Of a stretch of 46,436 nt of DNA, positions 12,428 through 44,625 are shown one piece after another. Location of the stretch: contig JAMPAG010000014.1 of assembly GCA_023667365.1 (NCBI GenBank), forward strand, positions 1 through 46,436. The letters run 5' to 3'. Made by a program: the position numbers and the translations under genes. Positions within the stretch are counted from its first letter, which is position 1, and each line of letters starts with the position of its first letter. The notes beneath the pieces were generated by a model, which saw only the letters and a list, made by a program, of their open reading frames with translations, had not been told where the DNA came from and made no database searches. The DNA comes from a bacterium (GTDB lineage Bacteria > Bacillota > Clostridia > Lachnospirales > Lachnospiraceae).

Positions 12428-12531
12428 ATGCGAAACTTATTTGCCTGTCATCCTTTTCACTATCCGAAAGAATCCGCACCCGCGGATTCTTTGAATAAGT
12501 TTTGCTATGCAAAACTTATTTGCCCTCATAC
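12428..12531. repeat. Direct repeat and two hairpins between relA and apt
   Basis: Two similar 25-bp segments (ATGCGAAACTTATTTGCC at about 12429 and ATGCAAAACTTATTTGCC at about 12508) lie 79 bases apart, and the second covers the apt stop codon. Between and over them are two hairpins: AAAGAATCCGC (12467-12477) with its complement at 12482-12492, and AATAAGTTTTGC (12494-12505) with its complement at 12509-12520. The order is the same as in the composite two-hairpin elements elsewhere in the window, though without a T-tract. Confidence 0.55.
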
Positions 12532-13252: not shown

Positions 13253-15097
13253 CTATTCCGTTCCGTACCACGAATAAGTCTCACAGATATAGTCCTGCCA
13301 GTCCTGTACCAGTTCCTCGTAAGACTTGCCCCACTCCGCATGGTACGACTTATCCGCACCGACGTACCGGATCACCGCCTGTTCACCGTAACAGTCCGCA
13401 AGATAAGCAACAAAAGAAGCCCCGCTCTGATAGGTCGCATTCGGATCATCCCATCCGCACGCATAGGTCATAAAATCTCCAAAATCGCGGTAATCGATTC
13501 TTATATCGATCGGGCGTCCGATATGCCGGATATATTCGGTTCGATACAACTCTATTTCCTGAAAATCGTCCCCCTCCACGGGATGATTATAATCATCATT
13601 CCAAAAATCATAGGCATATTCATTATACAGGCAGTCATAATTTCTGGCAAATCCCTCGCACGCCCAGAGCTGATCCGGGTCGTCACGTCCGTCCATAAGC
13701 GCATGAATATACTCATGCATCAGGGAAACCACACTTTTTAAGTAGATCGTATGCTTTCCCGTCTGGTAAAAGGATGCATCCGACATGCCTGTGCCATTGG
13801 AAAAGAAAACCGTAAGATCATTTTCATAACGGTCAAAATCAAACAACTCCCGATACTGCCCCATCTGACGGACGTTGCACTCAAAAAACGCTTTCACTTC
13901 ACCATAATCTTCGTGCAGAAAATGTTCCGATACTTTAGGATTTGCCTCCCAATTACGGTCCTGCCAGTCCTTTTCTATGTAAAAAGAAGCATATTCACAT
14001 GCCGCCGCATAATCAAACACCACGCCGCCGTATTGATAACGGATTTCCGTTAAGCTGCATTCCACGCCGTTTTCTGTGTAGAACGCCTCCAGCGCTTCCT
14101 TCGCGCGCCCGATTCCCTCCGCGGTTCCCGAATCGGACAACAGGTTTAAGAACTCCTGCTCCGTATGCGCGGACAGATACGTCTCGACAAAACAGCAGGC
14201 GTTCTTCTTTGCCGCCTCCACGTCTTCCGGCGTGGCAAACCGCTCATCAAAGCACAGCAGGTTTAAGTCGTACAGCTCCGGGCTGCTCATCCGCCAAAAA
14301 ACGCTTCCGTCTCTGTCTGCTGGGACCGCTTCTCCGCCATCGGTCTCTGCCTCCCAGCCGCCGGTTCCTGCCTCTCCGTCACCGATCCCCGCCTCTTCGC
14401 CGTCGATCCCCGCTTCTCCGCCGCCGATCCCTGCTTCTCCGCCGCCGGTCCCCGCTTCTCCGTCACCGATTCCTGCCTCTTCGCCGTCGATCCCTGCCTC
14501 TTCGCCAGCGCCGATCCTCGCTTCTCTGCACAGATGATCCGCATATCCGTACGCCATCCCGTAATTTCCCCACTCGCCATACGCCGTAAGCAGGCACGCC
14601 GCAACAAAGTCTGCAAAATCTCCCGCTTGCAGTGAGGTATACAGCCGATGCTCCACCACGGAAACACCGTCATAGCTTTCCGGCGTGAGCACCACAATCT
14701 CTATCTTTGGCAGAACGCCGTCCATACAGCCAAACGCTCTCTCCGCCGCCGCGATACACGCCTGCCGCTCCTGCTCGCTGATCACGGTTTCAAAATAATA
14801 GACCGCATGAGCGGTCTCCGTCTTTTTCACATCCTTACGGAACGTAAACTCTCCAAGCACCGGTTCCCTGTAGCGGATAATGTCTGCTTCATATTCATAT
14901 ACTGTCGGCACTGTACCGTCTTCCGGATTCTTATATTCCTCCATGTCCCCGTTTTCATTCTCATTTTCAGACGATAAAGTGCCTGCATCCCCCTCATGCC
15001 CTGTCTGCGTTTCCGATCCTTTATTCCCACTTAAACCGCAGGCTGTGAGTACGATCGTCATGATCATGACCGCACATAAGAACTTTCCTTTTCTCAT
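13253..15097 (-). CDS. Lipoprotein, putative gluzincin metallopeptidase with internal tandem repeat
   Basis: 614 aa from the ATG at 15097 (AGAGGAAG upstream). The signal MRKGKFLCAVMIMTIVLTAC ends in a lipobox Cys at residue 20. An acidic linker follows. The catalytic motif is HEYIH at 461-465 in SVVSLMHEYIHALMDG, with a candidate third zinc ligand Glu481 in LWACEGFARNYD. HExxH plus a Glu 16 residues on, in a W-x-x-EG-x-A context, is the arrangement of the peptidase MA-like gluzincins. Residues 199-257 are about eight copies of a seven-residue Gly/Glu/Ala/Ile unit (GEAGIGG) that interrupts the otherwise ordinary sequence. It would act on the outer face of the membrane. No partner gene is adjacent. 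The peptidase call is from the motif only. Confidence 0.72.
   Translation of the reverse strand: MRKGKFLCAVMIMTIVLTACGLSGNKGSETQTGHEGDAGTLSSENENENGDMEEYKNPEDGTVPTVYEYEADIIRYREPVLGEFTFRKDVKKTETAHAVYYFETVISEQERQACIAAAERAFGCMDGVLPKIEIVVLTPESYDGVSVVEHRLYTSLQAGDFADFVAACLLTAYGEWGNYGMAYGYADHLCREARIGAGEEAGIDGEEAGIGDGEAGTGGGEAGIGGGEAGIDGEEAGIGDGEAGTGGWEAETDGGEAVPADRDGSVFWRMSSPELYDLNLLCFDERFATPEDVEAAKKNACCFVETYLSAHTEQEFLNLLSDSGTAEGIGRAKEALEAFYTENGVECSLTEIRYQYGGVVFDYAAACEYASFYIEKDWQDRNWEANPKVSEHFLHEDYGEVKAFFECNVRQMGQYRELFDFDRYENDLTVFFSNGTGMSDASFYQTGKHTIYLKSVVSLMHEYIHALMDGRDDPDQLWACEGFARNYDCLYNEYAYDFWNDDYNHPVEGDDFQEIELYRTEYIRHIGRPIDIRIDYRDFGDFMTYACGWDDPNATYQSGASFVAYLADCYGEQAVIRYVGADKSYHAEWGKSYEELVQDWQDYICETYSWYGTE
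14327..14503 (-). repeat. 21-bp coding minisatellite inside the metallopeptidase gene
   Basis: About eight imperfect units of 21 bases encode seven-residue repeats of the GEAGIGG/GEEAGID type. All units keep the frame, so copy number changes would alter length without frameshift. Confidence 0.85.
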
Positions 15098-15183
15098 TCT
15101 CTTCCTCTCTCCAATAACCCATACAGATACCCAATATCCCAGCAACGCCCGCAGAAAGCAGCAGAAAGCAGGTTGATAAAATC

Positions 15184-15212: not shown

Positions 15213-15260
15213 TCAGAATATCACAGATGCGCCCACACAATTCCTTCTCTGCGCAACTCA

Positions 15261-15310
15261 AAAGAATCCGCCACAGGCGGCTTCTTTGAAAGCGCGCGAA
15301 GCGCGATTTT
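15261..15310. repeat. Composite two-hairpin element, diverged unit
   Basis: Hairpin A is AAAGAATCCGCC (15261-15272) against 15276-15287. Hairpin B is AAAGCGCGC (15289-15297) against GCGCGATTT (15301-15309) with a T-run on the plus strand. It precedes three near-identical tandem units and has the same A-then-B order with different stem sequences. Confidence 0.6.
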
Positions 15311-15315
15311 TGATC

Positions 15316-15553
15316 TATAGGCACTCTCGTGACCTGTGAAGAATCGCAAAGCGATTCTTCGAAAGACTTTCGCGCAAGCGGAAGTCTTTTTAACCTATCG
15401 GCACTCTCGTGACCTGTGAAGAATCGCAAAGCGATTCTTCGAAAGACTTTCGCGCAAGCGGAAGTCTTTTTAACCTATCGGCACTCTCGTGACCTGTGAA
15501 GAATCGCAAAGCGATTCTTCGAAAGACTTCCGCGCAAGCGGAAGTCTTTTTTA
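15316..15553. repeat. Three tandem 80-bp composite two-hairpin elements
   Basis: GCACTCTCGTGACCTGTGAA occurs at 15321, 15401 and 15481, an exact 80-base period. Each unit continues with hairpin A (GAATCGC, loop AAA, GCGATTC) and hairpin B (AGACTT(T/C)CGC, loop GCAA, GCGGAAGTCT) followed by five or six T on the plus strand. The last hairpin B runs up to the malG stop codon. The T-runs follow the plus strand, yet the genes on both sides are on the minus strand, so these do not look like simple malG terminators. The whole 15098-15550 gap otherwise holds only the promoter at 15184. Confidence 0.9.
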
Positions 15554-16387
15554 CCCCTTCACCGCTCCTGCCGTCATGCCGTCCACCAAAAAGCGCATCA
15601 GGCAGAAATACAGGATAACGATAGGTACCGCGATGAACACGGAGCCCGCCGCGAACCGGGCAAATTCCGTCTCGCCGAGGCTCATTAAGCCGACCGCCAC
15701 CGTATACAGGTCTTTCTCCTTTAACAAAAGCTTCGGCAGGATAAAATCGCTCCACGGGAACACAAAGCTCGTGAGCGCCGTGTACACAATGATCGGCATG
15801 GAGATCGGCAGGTTGATCTTTAGGAACACCTGAAAATTCGTGGCGCCGTCGATCCGCGCCGCCTCGTCGATGGAACCCGGTATCGTGTCGAAAAATCCTT
15901 TCTGCGTCAGGTAGCCCATCGGCGCGCCGGAGCTGTAGATCAGGATGAGTCCCCACATTTTATTGATGAGTCCGAACTGCGTCATGATGATGTAGACCGC
16001 GATCATACCCATAAAAGAGGGGAACATGCCGAGCACGAGCGTCGTCTTCATGATCGCTTTTCTGCCGCGGAACTGAAAACGGGACATCGTGTACGCCGTC
16101 AGTATGACTAAAAACGTACCGATCAGGCAGCTCATCGTCGCGATAAAGAGCGTATTGCGGAACCATCTCGGATAGTTATACATTTCCGTGTCCGTAAACA
16201 GCATCCGAAACGTGTTCAGGCTGTACTCGCTCGGAAAAAAGCCGTCAAACGAATAGATGGATCCCGACTTGCTGAAAGAAGCCAGGATCAGCCAAAGGCA
16301 CGGAAAGAGAAACACAAAGCAGACTGCGATCAAAACGATATGTGTCACGAGCGTATCCATGATCCGTAAGGTCTTTCTACTTTTCAT
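15551..16387 (-). CDS. malG: MalG-like maltodextrin ABC permease
   Basis: A 278-aa inner-membrane permease of the carbohydrate ABC importer class (CUT1), with six helices. The first is IVLIAVCFVFLFPCLWLILASFS. The ATPase-contact (EAA) loop is seen as GFFDTIPGSIDEAARIDGATNFQVFLKINLPI, broken here only by its own turn, at about residues 168-200. The ATG overlaps the malF stop as ATGA and has GGAGGA upstream, so malF and malG are coupled. The C-terminus FLVDGMTAGAVKG is the usual MalG ending. No ATPase (MsmX/MalK type) gene is in the cluster, so the importer must share an ATPase encoded elsewhere, as is common in Firmicutes. Confidence 0.93.
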   Translation of the reverse strand: MKSRKTLRIMDTLVTHIVLIAVCFVFLFPCLWLILASFSKSGSIYSFDGFFPSEYSLNTFRMLFTDTEMYNYPRWFRNTLFIATMSCLIGTFLVILTAYTMSRFQFRGRKAIMKTTLVLGMFPSFMGMIAVYIIMTQFGLINKMWGLILIYSSGAPMGYLTQKGFFDTIPGSIDEAARIDGATNFQVFLKINLPISMPIIVYTALTSFVFPWSDFILPKLLLKEKDLYTVAVGLMSLGETEFARFAAGSVFIAVPIVILYFCLMRFLVDGMTAGAVKG

Positions 16388-21633: not shown

Positions 21634-22422
21634 ATGCATACAAAATATACCATTCGAGACATTGCAAAAATGGCAGGCGTGTCGGCAGCAACCGTATCCT
21701 ATGTGATCAATAACCGGGAGGACCAGCGCATCAGCGCGGAAACGAAAAAAAAGGTCCTCCAGATCGTCAATCTGCTCGGCTACAGCCCGAATTCCTCGGC
21801 AAAGTCGCTCGCGACCAATAAGACTTCCCATGTCGCGCTGTATCTTTCCCGCGAGGATTCCCTCTACAAACGCTGCGAGCAGCTCTCCATGATCGAGGCG
21901 CTCTCCCATGTGTTAAAGGAGCACGGCTATCATCTTTTGGTCTTAGACCGCGATGACCGCGACAAGATCGACTATGCCGACGCCATTATCTGCTATGACG
22001 ATACCGCCGATTTTTTCAGCGAGGTCGGCGACAAAAACTTCATCCCCCTGATCGGATTGGATCTTCTGACCGATACGCCCCTACAGATCTTCTTTCAGGT
22101 CTGTACGGATTATCAGGCGTTAAAAGATGCCGCTGACGCGCATTTCGGCACGGATCGTTACGCCTATTTCTGTCTGGAACCCAATAACCATGCGGTTCGC
22201 GAGCTCATTCTCAGGACATTTGCGCAGGTTCATTTTGTTGAATCTGGATCGGTTGTTCCGGATGGAAATCTCTGTTACAGTCAGACCAGTCTGTGCCCCC
22301 TTTTAGGAAGCACAGCCCTTTACCTGCCCCTCGACCTGCATCGCAAGATGGAGCGGCTTTACGCCTGCATGGAACTTGCCCTAAACCGCGTACCCGACTG
22401 CGACCATGTCGTGTTTGTGTAG
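21634..22422 (+). CDS. LacI-family transcriptional regulator, short form
   Basis: 262 aa. The DNA-binding head is typical: YTIRDIAKMAGVSAATVSYVI (residues 5-25), ISAETKKKVLQIVNLLGYSPN and the hinge SSAKSLATNKTSHVALYL. The sugar-sensing part is only about 200 residues, against about 270 in standard LacI proteins, and ends at PDCDHVVFV, so the second lobe is incomplete or unusual. It may sense a ligand differently or dimerise without one. It is divergent from GH13 and next to the lipoprotein with LacI-type operators, so it is the likely local regulator of maltodextrin genes. The promoter suggests translation without a leader. A hairpin terminator follows 20 bases after the stop. Confidence 0.88.
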   Translation: MHTKYTIRDIAKMAGVSAATVSYVINNREDQRISAETKKKVLQIVNLLGYSPNSSAKSLATNKTSHVALYLSREDSLYKRCEQLSMIEALSHVLKEHGYHLLVLDRDDRDKIDYADAIICYDDTADFFSEVGDKNFIPLIGLDLLTDTPLQIFFQVCTDYQALKDAADAHFGTDRYAYFCLEPNNHAVRELILRTFAQVHFVESGSVVPDGNLCYSQTSLCPLLGSTALYLPLDLHRKMERLYACMELALNRVPDCDHVVFV

Positions 22423-22441
22423 GAACTTTCCCGACCCTAAG

Positions 22442-22469
22442 AGACTTTCGCGTAAGCGGAAGTCTTTTT
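22442..22469 (+). terminator. Intrinsic terminator of the LacI-type regulator
   Basis: AGACTTTCGC (22442-22451), loop GTAA, GCGGAAGTCT (22456-22465) and a run of five T. The stem is nearly the same as hairpin B of the 80-bp repeats at 15316-15553. Confidence 0.8.
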
Positions 22470-22624
22470 AACTTATAGGAATTCCACAGCCCGGAAGAAT
22501 CGCGAAGCGATTCTTCGAAAGAGTTTGCGCACAGCGCAAACTCTTTCTTTCACATTGGCAGTCTCGCAGTCCGTGAAGGAATGCTAACGGCATTTCTTCA
22601 AAAGCGTGCGCAGCACGATTTTTT
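22470..22624. repeat. Two composite two-hairpin elements in the convergent gap
   Basis: Unit one: linker with TATAGGAATTCC, hairpin A GAAGAATCGC (22494-22503) against 22507-22516, hairpin B AAAGAGTTTGCGC (22518-22530) with a perfect 13-bp complement at 22534-22546. Unit two: linker TCTCGCAGTCCGTGAA, hairpin A GAAGGAATGC against GCATTTCTTC, hairpin B AAAGCGTGC against GCACGATTT with a T-run near 22617. The second may also terminate the minus-strand lipoprotein gene. Confidence 0.75.
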
Positions 22625-22659
22625 ATTCATGACAATCGCATTTTCGCAAAGCGTGAATG

Positions 22660-23871
22660 CTATTGTTCCAGCGCAACCGTCAATTCGCCGCTTGCAGGAT
22701 CATAGGTCAACGTATAGGTTCCCGTCTGCTTTACGATGATATTGGCGTTCTCCGTCCCGTCCACAAGCGCGAGCGACGCTTCATCCGTGATGTTCGTATA
22801 GCGGACATACTCATTTCCCACGCCGGAATTCTCACCCACGGTCACCAGCGTTGTAAGCAGGAATTCATCGCCTTCCTCCAGGTCGATCGTCAGCGTGTGG
22901 ATGCCGTTTTCCTCTTTGAACCCGTACATCTCATCATAGCGGTCCTCCCAGTTCGTAATGACCGCGCCTTTGATATAATACGTCGTCACCGCTTCCTGCT
23001 CGCCGCCCGCCATTTCTCCGTTGTACGTCCACTCAATCCGGTCATACGGATTGGAATTATAAATCTCTCTTGTCTCCTCCGAATAGGTGCTCGCGCCCGT
23101 GTCATACACATCCGCACCCGGATAGGTATACAACATCAGCGTATAGTTTCCCGATACCGCGCATTTGATGTTTGCTTTCAGCGTGCTGTCGGAAAGACCG
23201 CCCGATACGGTAAAATATTCCGTGCCGTCCGCCTCGGTCGTCGTCATGTAACCGCCGCCCCTCTGGTTCGCCCAAGAGGAATCAATCGCAAACTGGAACT
23301 CGTCGCCTGCGCACAGGTCAAGCGTGATCGTATACAGGTTCTCGTCCGCGCTCTTCGCCAGATAATGCTCTTCATTGATGACTTTGCCCCAGCTCGACGC
23401 GGAAAGCAGCGGACTTGTGCCGCTCCCCACAATGGCAAATGTTCTGGTATCCTCCACATATTCCATAAATCCGGCATAGACACCGACATCCGCCGTGATC
23501 GGCGCGGAAAAATCAAAGGTATGCGTATGGGAAGGCGTTCCAAACCATCCCATAAAGATCAGACCGTCCTTCTCCGGCGTATACTCTTCCGCGAGCGCTC
23601 CGTCCGCTACCTCCTGTGTCGATAACACGGTCGTGCCATCATTATCGTAAAACGTTACCGTATAGACGGCGGGTTCTGCATCGGCAGCCGCATCTGTGCC
23701 CTCCGTCTCATTCTGCACGTTTCCCTGTGTCTCATCCTGCTGCACGCCGCTCTGATCCTGCGTTCCGTTCTGTGCATCATCTGCATTTCCCGCGCCTTTC
23801 CCGCATCCTGCCAAAACAAACAGACACAGTAACAGCGCAAACACGTTCCACTTTCCGTTTCGTTTTTTCAT
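22660..23871 (-). CDS. Putative starch-binding surface lipoprotein
   Basis: 403 aa. The signal peptide ends at the lipobox LAGC (Cys23), followed by an acidic Gln/Asn/Glu-rich linker to about residue 68. Residues 70-135 resemble an InlB-type B-repeat (VTFYDNDGTTVLS, then GLIFMGWF, then VYAGF). Residues 143-250 and 296-402 look like two related beta-sandwich modules; each has an IVG or IKG strand, then LYTITLDLCAGDEFQFAI or HTLTIDLEEGDEFLL, then a GNYTLMLYTY or GTYTLTYDP ending. This layout resembles SusE/SusF-like or CBM starch-binding modules. It has no catalytic motif. It is anchored outside the cell and would hold alpha-glucan near the importer. Upstream is a promoter with two LacI-type operators. 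The ATG has GGAGG at good spacing. Confidence 0.75.
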   Translation of the reverse strand: MKKRNGKWNVFALLLCLFVLAGCGKGAGNADDAQNGTQDQSGVQQDETQGNVQNETEGTDAAADAEPAVYTVTFYDNDGTTVLSTQEVADGALAEEYTPEKDGLIFMGWFGTPSHTHTFDFSAPITADVGVYAGFMEYVEDTRTFAIVGSGTSPLLSASSWGKVINEEHYLAKSADENLYTITLDLCAGDEFQFAIDSSWANQRGGGYMTTTEADGTEYFTVSGGLSDSTLKANIKCAVSGNYTLMLYTYPGADVYDTGASTYSEETREIYNSNPYDRIEWTYNGEMAGGEQEAVTTYYIKGAVITNWEDRYDEMYGFKEENGIHTLTIDLEEGDEFLLTTLVTVGENSGVGNEYVRYTNITDEASLALVDGTENANIIVKQTGTYTLTYDPASGELTVALEQ

Positions 23872-26710: not shown

Positions 26711-26882
26711 ATTCCCCGCTCGCGTTGCTCGCCGCAAAGCATTTCCTGCGCCGTTGCTCGTGCCAGCACGGCAACGCCCCCGGAAACACTTTGCTTTTCT
26801 GCTTATCGCGCAAAAAAAGAGCCCCGCCTGCGCGGAACTCTTTCGAAACCTGTGCCTGAGCGCTTCGTTTTCACGGAAAGGC
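26711..26882. other. Structured gene-free stretch upstream of groES
   Basis: This part of the 611-base gap between groES and the GGDEF gene has several inverted repeats: GAAATGCTTCGC with GCAAAGCATTTC (about 26699-26748), CGTTGC-CGTGC with its complement (about 26753-26777), and a hairpin-B-like stem AAAGAG/CTCTTT near 26816-26845. Frames across it have no ribosome sites and I see no gene. Confidence 0.5.
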
Positions 26883-27072
26883 TTTCATTTACATGTATAC
26901 GCTTCATCTGCATACAGACGTCTCTATTTGCATGCATACGCTTCATTTGCATGCATACGCTTCATTTGCATGCGTACGCTTCATTTGCATGCGTACGCTT
27001 CATCTGCATGTAGACGCTTTCATTTGCATGCATACGCTTCATCTGCATGCAGACGTCTCTATTTGCATGCGC
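26883..27072. repeat. 19-bp tandem array (about ten units) at the end of the GGDEF gene
   Basis: The unit is CGCTTCATTTGCATGCATA with small variants, repeated about ten times at 19 or 20 bases. Each unit carries a TGCATGCA-like palindrome. The last unit covers the stop codon and final codons of the GGDEF protein. A 55-base block at 26881 recurs at 27016 with only three differences, so the array grew by a larger duplication as well. Function unknown. Confidence 0.92.
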
Positions 27073-44447: not shown

Positions 44448-44550
44448 GAAGCATTTTCCATCCGCCGTTATTTTTCCGACCGTTTTTCAACGTTTTTTCG
44501 ATGTGCGGCAATTTTCTCTTTTCTATCCGCGCCAAGTCCGCTATAATAAA

Positions 44551-44625
44551 AAAGAGTTCCGCTGACGCGAAACTCTTTCGAAGAATCCGCTATGCGGATT
44601 CTTCCGGACTACGGAAATTCCTATA
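44551..44625. repeat. Composite two-hairpin element in reverse orientation
   Basis: Read on the minus strand it has the same order as at 22470: linker with TATAGGAATTTCC, hairpin A GAAGAATCCGC with GCGGATTCTTC (44580-44604), then hairpin B AAAGAGTTTCGC with its partner (44551-44578). The linker matches that at 22470 almost base for base, while the stems differ. It lies in the 380-base gap between pheA and the DUF5050 gene, which otherwise holds only the pheA promoter. Confidence 0.8.

Follow-up and report, generated by a model that had tools for sequence, protein, structure and literature searches.

The window analysed here, a stretch of 46,436 nucleotides, comprises a complete contig of a Lachnospiraceae MAG (3.29 Mb in 128 contigs) from an uncultured gut bacterium (own genome, G000), and it carries several copies of a two-hairpin repeat. 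On the strand that ends in T, called here the element strand, the order is linker, hairpin A, GAAAG, hairpin B and TTTTTTA. The linker has the consensus ACTTATAGGAAATTTC(G/C)..A.CC.G, hairpin A is either GAAGAATCGC..GCGATTCTTC or AAAGAACTGCC..GGCAGTTCTTT, and hairpin B is found with many stems. Read on the sense strand of the gene to which a copy is anchored, the same unit runs stop TAA, AAAA, hairpin B, TTTC, hairpin A and linker. The seven two-hairpin units named in an earlier note on this DNA were all present, each of them folding as two hairpins with z-scores of –2.96 to –7.52 against dinucleotide shuffles, and the linker TATAGGAATT(T)CC was indeed common to the copies at 22476 and 44622. 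A covariance model (CM) added three matches in the window, at 12449-12524 (+), 22421-22471 (+) and 26812-26884 (–). The features are as follows:

12449..12524, plus strand: diverged two-hairpin unit between apt and relA (CM match 29.4 bits, E 7.3e-4)
15250..15316, plus strand: degraded unit 1 of the array, with hairpin A GAATCCGCC..GGCGG, hairpin B GCGCGCG..GCGCG and T5 (CM match 36.4 bits, E 1.7e-5; fold)
15319..15393, plus strand: unit 2, member of the tandem array, with linker, hairpin A GAAGAATCGC/GCGATTCTTC, hairpin B AAAGACTTTCGC/GCGGAAGTCTTT, GCAA loop and T-run (CM match 96.1 bits; z –6.36)
15399..15473, plus strand: unit 3, near identical to unit 2 (CM match 95.8 bits; z –5.95)
15479..15553, plus strand: unit 4, last of the array (CM match 94.1 bits; z –7.52)
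15551..16387, minus strand: anchored ABC transporter permease gene, BPD_transp_1 (gene call; Pfam PF00528)
22421..22471, plus strand: hairpin-B-only unit with linker (CM match 34.5 bits; fold –19.4 kcal/mol with flanks)
22476..22549, plus strand: full unit with linker ATAGGAATTCC, hairpin A and hairpin B GAGTTTGCGC/GCGCAAACTC (CM match 74.1 bits; z –6.87)
22556..22628, plus strand: full unit with hairpin A GAAGGAATGC/GCATTTCTTC, hairpin B CGTGC/GCACG and T6 (CM match 68.2 bits)
26812..26884, minus strand: weak match, mostly hairpin B plus T7 (CM match 31.6 bits, E 2.2e-4)
44547..44622, minus strand: full reversed unit between divergent genes (CM match 79.4 bits; z –6.34)

The three units at 15319-15553 form a tandem array with a period of 80 bp and near-identical sequence (97% matches). 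The TTTTTTA of unit 4 ends on the stop of the minus-strand gene 15551-16387, the reverse complement of 15551-15553 being TAA, and the stop codon of this gene is itself the end of the element. The other loci present several arrangements. The unit at 22421..22471 directly follows the stop of the plus-strand gene 21634-22422, and the one at 12449..12524 overlaps the apt stop at 12516-12518 without an A/T run, apt and relA both lying on the minus strand. The unit at 22556-22628, whose minimum-energy fold leaves out hairpin B, is placed 31 nt before the TAG stop (22660-22662) of the convergent gene, the match at 26812-26884 runs in the same direction as both of its neighbours, and the copy at 44547-44622 lies in the leader of a plus-strand gene, its T-run adjoining a plus-strand TATAAT (44541-44546); the first and the last of these three are exceptions to stop contact. 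Textbook stop contact with an A-run was found at one of the five window loci, and the exceptions at 44547, 22556 and 26812 indicate that the stop lock, counted in 58 of 86 arrays of the genome, is a strong tendency and not a rule.

The genome-wide covariance-model search proposed in the earlier note, performed with a seven-copy model, returned at least 145 matches in the own genome, a lower bound because only 150 of the 1565 first-look candidates were scored. Under stricter filters and with 118 candidates scored in each genome, at least 117, 81, 70, 69 and 77 matches were obtained in G000, G001, G002, G003 and G004, respectively. The seven units are real, and their true extent is genome- and genus-wide, larger than had been stated. 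Many related copies are dispersed as an interspersed repeat, present in all five genomes of the genus, and under the same filters and number of scored candidates the covariance model gave no match in 36 genomes of other genera. A pattern scan of the GTDB-species collection yielded three stretches, all of them from Lachnospiraceae MAGs, and no known RNA family was matched at Rfam gathering score in the window. Moreover, a model-free anchor, composed of the A/B junction TTTC[AG]AAGAA plus both stems, identified 166 distinct elements in the sequence retrieved for the genus, identical 70-base copies within one genome being taken once, and gave no matches in 310 kb from five other genera. The two-hairpin repeats are genus-specific. 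Their linker consensus is alike across the five species, with the core present in only 81 of 165 elements. The linker core TATAGGAAWTT was counted 34 times in 1.05 Mb, and 28 of these occurrences fall at model matches.

The distribution bears on the reading that these units are ordinary terminators of the low-GC Firmicute type, flanked by A- and T-runs, whose repetition would reflect no more than the general likeness of terminators. Stem-loops that lie close to stops and have A and T runs at their sides are frequent in this group according to the available part of PMC1590033. Against the reading stand the two hairpins in fixed order, with a junction common to five species and confined to one genus in the searches above, and it is considered improbable.

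The compensatory change of the stems, claimed earlier from the window copies, holds over 127 own copies. Paired cells reached 93.1% vs 83.5% in shuffles, double changes numbered 258 vs 87.8, and the covariation score was 0.313 vs 0.151, none of 500 shuffles being as high, while slid structures lowered the covariation to 0.026-0.087. To avoid circularity, an anchor-based test took the stem edges from the flanking A-run and the TTTC anchor, not from complementarity, in 105 distinct inserts derived from the 175 of 198 anchor sites having an A-run. In this sample the first six bases complemented the last six in 0.862 of cells, vs 0.533 when 3′ ends were exchanged between elements (sd 0.0185; maximum 0.595 in 1000 shuffles). 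Compensatory change hence goes beyond both shuffles and slid controls, as in a structured RNA, in tests that take the copies as independent of kinship. The suggestion that selection acts on the folded RNA is supported by these results together with the strand-dependent stability of hairpin B described below.

The relation of the elements to genes was examined with gene calls from a hexamer script, not from a published gene finder. The 127 matches group into 93 arrays, of which 92 are uniform in orientation, and 86 remained after seven with no neighbour on one side were dropped. Relative to the element strand, the upstream and downstream genes were anti/anti in 40 arrays, same/anti in 27 and same/same in 16, these last running with both neighbours; the three anti/same arrays, including the 44547 copy, lie between divergent genes. 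The earlier observation that T-runs follow one strand and often mismatch the direction of the neighbouring gene was thus confirmed, 67 of the 86 arrays pointing at an antisense gene. In 58 of these 67 the stop of the downstream antisense gene lies within –9 to +1 nt of the element end, an anchoring that the earlier note missed, and 28 of the 86 arrays have no contact to an antisense stop. Because most arrays face an antisense gene and touch its stop, a blocker of antisense transcription is the best fitting of the roles that had been listed, with plain terminators left only for the 27 convergent and the 16 same-direction arrays. In 18 of the 67 arrays, a distinct sense terminator was detected behind the element.

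The same anchoring was observed across the five species. With ORFs of at least 80 codons, and after excluding 21 of the 166 anchor elements that were too near a sequence end, 93 of 145 elements had an ORF stop no more than 14 nt from hairpin B, and in 68 of these the position was exactly –7 (TAA-AAAA-stem), compared with 1, 5, 9 and 2 of 145 at shifted control positions; the rest comprised 28 inner tandem units, by the script's own test, and 24 elements that were neither. The anchored stop was TAA in 86 of 93 cases. In the own genome, TAA closed 60 of 76 element gene ends vs 317 of 792 other gene ends, and AAAA followed the stop in 75% of those 76 ends vs 4.4% of the 792 others.

Two further explanations meet their first evidence here. 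The repeat could be a sense-strand mRNA element, its post-stop hairpins protecting the upstream cistron from 3′ exonucleases or slowing terminating ribosomes, after the model of the stop-proximal REP described in E. coli. The fixed reference point is in fact the stop codon of the sense gene, and REP sequences within 15 nt of a stop are stated to downregulate translation in the available part of PMC12306157, citing its ref. 17. Neither the TAA preference nor the four following A would be required by a sense RNA, however, and this explanation is regarded as unlikely. Alternatively, the repeat could be selfish and devoid of host function, piling up at gene ends as harmless places, so that its terminator look would be nothing but its own end sequence. 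Neutral insertion would scatter across the intergenic gap, whereas 68 of the 93 anchored stops share one exact distance; the selfish reading is judged a shade less likely even than the mRNA element, and the comparison of orthologous sites bears on it again.

The polarity of the elements was determined from the tracts, loops and pairs of hairpin B. In the 161 of 167 rows that were parsed, the 8 nt after hairpin B contained on average 6.32 T on the element strand vs 3.09 on the sense strand, and the sense value was exactly 3 (UUUC) in 146 of 161, so that a U-tract exists on just one of the two strands. Behind hairpin A, 2.65 T of 8 were counted on the sense strand (n=147). The element strand consequently has the form of an intrinsic terminator, a GC-rich hairpin and then a U-tract averaging 6.32 T of 8, and the U-tracts on both strands that would define a bidirectional terminator are not found. 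Inner tandem units without a stop codon keep the T-run (mean longest run 5.62, n=26), so TAA does not by itself account for the run. Of 145 B hairpins, 135 were more stable as RNA of the element strand and 6 as sense RNA. Over 93 distinct B hairpins, 32 wobble pairs could form on the element strand only and 5 on the sense strand only, about half of the excess coming from one pair of a common stem type (15 of 29 in the table of the anchor-based test); hairpin A exhibited no strand preference (6:6). G..A loops (GAA, GCA, GCAA, GTAA and others) were counted, within the top 15 loop types, in at least 101 of 166 elements on the element strand and at least 7 on the sense strand. The stability bias of hairpin B comes partly from these loops and partly from the wobble pairs. 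The U-tract, loops, wobble pairs and stability of hairpin B, all favouring the other strand, and the T-run maintained where no stop exists, further weaken the case for an element acting in the sense mRNA.

The polarity also speaks against ordinary terminators. Stop-proximal hairpins with an A-run only vs a T-run only numbered 18:4 in own contig C40, 10:6 in G004 and 6:5 in G003, and 3:7 in five other genera pooled, a small sample of 106 gene ends; the reversed polarity is strong in the own genome and, in the sampled parts of the two relatives, weak in G004 and absent in G003. Antisense-facing terminators at gene ends were detected at 25 of 214 ends in own C40, 14 of 218 in G004 and 4 of 162 in G003, with none in shuffles under the same gene calls, by a scan that seems insensitive. 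The 27 arrays between convergent genes and the 10 of 48 stop-proximal hairpins of own C40 that are two-way would agree with ordinary terminators, against which stands the excess of A-run-only hairpins in the own C40, opposite to that of the five other genera.

Copies were found inside conserved gene pairs, namely between dnaN-yaaA, rimM-trmD, rnfA-rnfB, luxS-mtnN, fabG-fabF, apt-relA and yicC-remA, and between a topoisomerase B gene and its follower, and the gap to the next same-direction gene was below 70 nt in 17 of the 40 anti/anti arrays. Family searches confirmed DnaN, RimM-TrmD, RnfA-RnfB, FabG-FabF, Apt, RelA/SpoT and LuxS-MtnN, as well as YicC with a RemA-like protein and the type II topoisomerase B subunit; the YaaA-like protein beside DnaN scored below the curated cut-off, and the follower of the topoisomerase gene is what we take it to be from its start only. 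At fabG-fabF and apt-relA the hairpins are diverged and have no canonical A-run. The named gene pairs are commonly co-transcribed in Firmicutes, as known from bacteria other than this one, so the sense polymerase would here have to be able to pass the elements. A position between the genes of conserved pairs would also suit an element of the sense mRNA. Two GyrB/ParE-like paralogues, 53% identical, were found in the own genome (C40:276490-278409 and C51:24865-26754), and it is the C40 gene that is followed by elements in five species.

Taking the observed position, polarity, covariation, placement in gene pairs and differences in presence between species together, we consider it somewhat probable, with confidence a little above even, that these genus-specific repeats are one-way intrinsic terminators, fused in most examined copies to the stop of the antisense gene and predicted to block antisense and to pass sense transcription. 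On the element strand, hairpin B and U6 would release a polymerase arriving from downstream just before its antisense entry into the gene, hairpin A and the linker lying upstream of hairpin B on this strand. In the sense direction hairpin B would be followed by only three U (UUUC), weakening termination, and such a three-U tract may terminate weakly. Furthermore, hairpin B begins about 4 nt after the stop codon and would fall within the cover of the terminating ribosome; antisense RNA would have no such ribosome, and the placement could thereby aid the one-way behaviour. In E. coli, a real terminator placed 5 nt after a stop codon falls from ~90% to <10% efficiency, as given in the available part of PMC4824070. 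A stop-anchored, antisense-only terminator would shield the coding region from polymerases that come in at its 3′ end, and in a convergent arrangement it would terminate the transcript of the opposing gene as well. More tentatively, and well below even confidence, a spreading repeat that settles at stop codons and brings its own TAA may install a one-way valve inside operons, at no fewer than 70-145 sites per genome, the stems being rewritten and the device kept; sense polymerase would pass together with its ribosome, and antisense polymerase would be shed precisely at the last codon.

Antisense transcription occurs widely among bacteria, and Rho is usually regarded as the factor that normally silences it. 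A missing Rho was rejected as the reason for the elements, since Rho was detected above the curated cut-off in all five genus genomes, and the elements are accordingly not replacing it. If the one-way terminator reading is true, the genus would have a second, sequence-encoded control of antisense transcription that can be read directly from the DNA, and a natural means of insulating the genes of an operon.

Orthologous sites were compared among the five species. In four or five compared genes, G001, G002 and G003 are 94-96% alike (dnaN 93-96%), and G000 and G004 are 84-89% and 78-85% like the rest, respectively. At the topoisomerase locus, TAA-AAAA-hairpin-TTTC-hairpin is found at the stop in all five species with five different B stems, a second G001 unit sharing its B stem with the G003 unit. 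The dnaN-yaaA site carries an element in the own genome and none in three relatives, the gene not being found in G004; the luxS and rnfA sites are empty in G004 and have an altered form in some others; no canonical unit exists at the apt site in the four relatives. The rimM site is filled in G000 and G002 and empty in G001 and G004, the gene not being found in G003. Given this distribution and the closeness of G001-G003, the empty rimM site of G001 resembles a loss more than an ancestral state without the unit. Identical B arms made up 6.7% of own-own pairs, 0.6% of own-G001, 11.5% of G001-G002 and 22.8% of G002-G002 pairs; B stems are thus common within clades, and hairpin A less so. Turnover probably takes place by copying within each lineage, with copies overwritten or copied, which would explain why one site carries different stems in different species. 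A fixed frame with freely exchanged stems allows one regulatory site to be followed through complete rewriting between species.

The presence and absence of units at dnaN, luxS, rnfA and rimM, the B stems shared within clades and the tandem duplication would all be expected of a selfish repeat. It is less easily reconciled with the topoisomerase locus, where paired stems are kept with different letters in five species, with the rimM unit apparently lost in G001, or with the fact that no cognate transposase was found, the Y1_Tnp matches being partial and limited to two of the five genomes. RAYT is the transposase partner of REP/BIME. Matches to Y1_Tnp (PF01797; IS200/RAYT-like) were partial in G000 (C14, C83, C61 and C49) and G004 (C20), none was obtained in G001, G002 and G003, and no complete RAYT-type domain match was found in the five genomes of the genus. 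Of the earlier idea of a REP-like mobile element, the difference in presence between species stands, and the expected transposase does not, its domain being absent from three of five repeat-carrying genomes; a RAYT-driven REP origin is not supported, with no intact cognate Y1 transposase in the five genus genomes. An origin from phages or plasmids was likewise rejected, one exact pattern giving no stretches in viral contigs and blastn of 15319-15553 no match among plasmids and phages.

Interspersed terminator-like repeats such as SPRITE, BOX and REP are a known kind, and what is new here is the stop-anchored, antisense-facing layout, of which no equivalent was recognised among the literature matches listed, subscription papers being mostly outside their coverage. 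Pairs of the Neisseria DUS form hairpins (PMC1590033, in its available part). These pairs, which act as terminators, resemble the present repeat as genome-wide hairpins repeated at gene ends, and differ from it in that its own stems are variable and its common word, the linker, lies outside them. Bidirectional intrinsic terminators share with the repeat the A-run, the GC stem and the position near a stop, yet they carry an A-tract and a T-tract, whereas in the present repeat the sense strand keeps only three U ahead of a second hairpin, making the device one-way by sequence (available parts of PMC1590033 and PMC4824070). REP/BIME are similar as abundant extragenic palindromes, some near stops; in the accessible text of PMC12306157, REP are defined as extragenic palindromes without a T-rich tail, the feature that sets them apart from terminators, and the repeat described here, having such a tail, lies outside this definition. 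The streptococcal BOX is also modular, with a variable number of hairpin modules, and is described without a T-run or a fixed tie to the stop codon of the neighbour, both of which the present repeat has (PMC3049150, available part). From the same part of that source, SPRITE is similar in being interspersed, terminator-like, T-rich at its tail and enriched at gene 3′ ends. It consists, however, of one 18-bp stem and a long T-rich tract, instead of two hairpins and a linker, and 15 of its sites are tabulated upstream of CDS and 15 between convergent genes (PMC3049150, available part). The present repeat is unlike SPRITE, as far as this part of the source describes it, in its 70-145 copies, stop-codon lock, reversed polarity and copies inside conserved gene pairs. 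For the sequence and structure of SPRITE, BOX and RUP, the comparison covered the Rfam scan of the window, in which no family reached gathering score.

Other roles for parts of the unit were considered and set aside. A promoter in the linker (TATAAG, sense strand) has no –35 at the usual spacing by eye. Pairing between the 3′ arm of hairpin A and the 5′ arm of hairpin B is possible by eye, and the folds prefer A plus B. As a DNA-uptake word the linker core is an unlikely candidate, since its 34 copies in 1.05 Mb are far below the frequency of the known uptake words.

Other repeats lie beside the elements. The ORF 13253-15145 (–), whose protein gave no Pfam match at 1e-5, contains a 21-bp repeat at window positions 14326-14507. 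A longer inverted repeat, GGATTCGGGKGTCAAAAGCCCTGC ... GCAGGRCTTTTGACACCCGAATCC, occurs beside elements at loci L109, L135 and L139 and in part at L116, and resembles an independent small mobile element of the own genome. A second repeat, approximately TTTTTTTGYRCGGTAAGCAGAGAAGCGAAAYATTTCACGTCTGCTTT, is placed directly behind sense terminators at 26770-26812 (–) in the window and at loci L112, L124 and L126, and a 19-bp tandem repeat, TTCATTTGCATGCATACGC, is present in about ten copies at 26884-27070 of the window.
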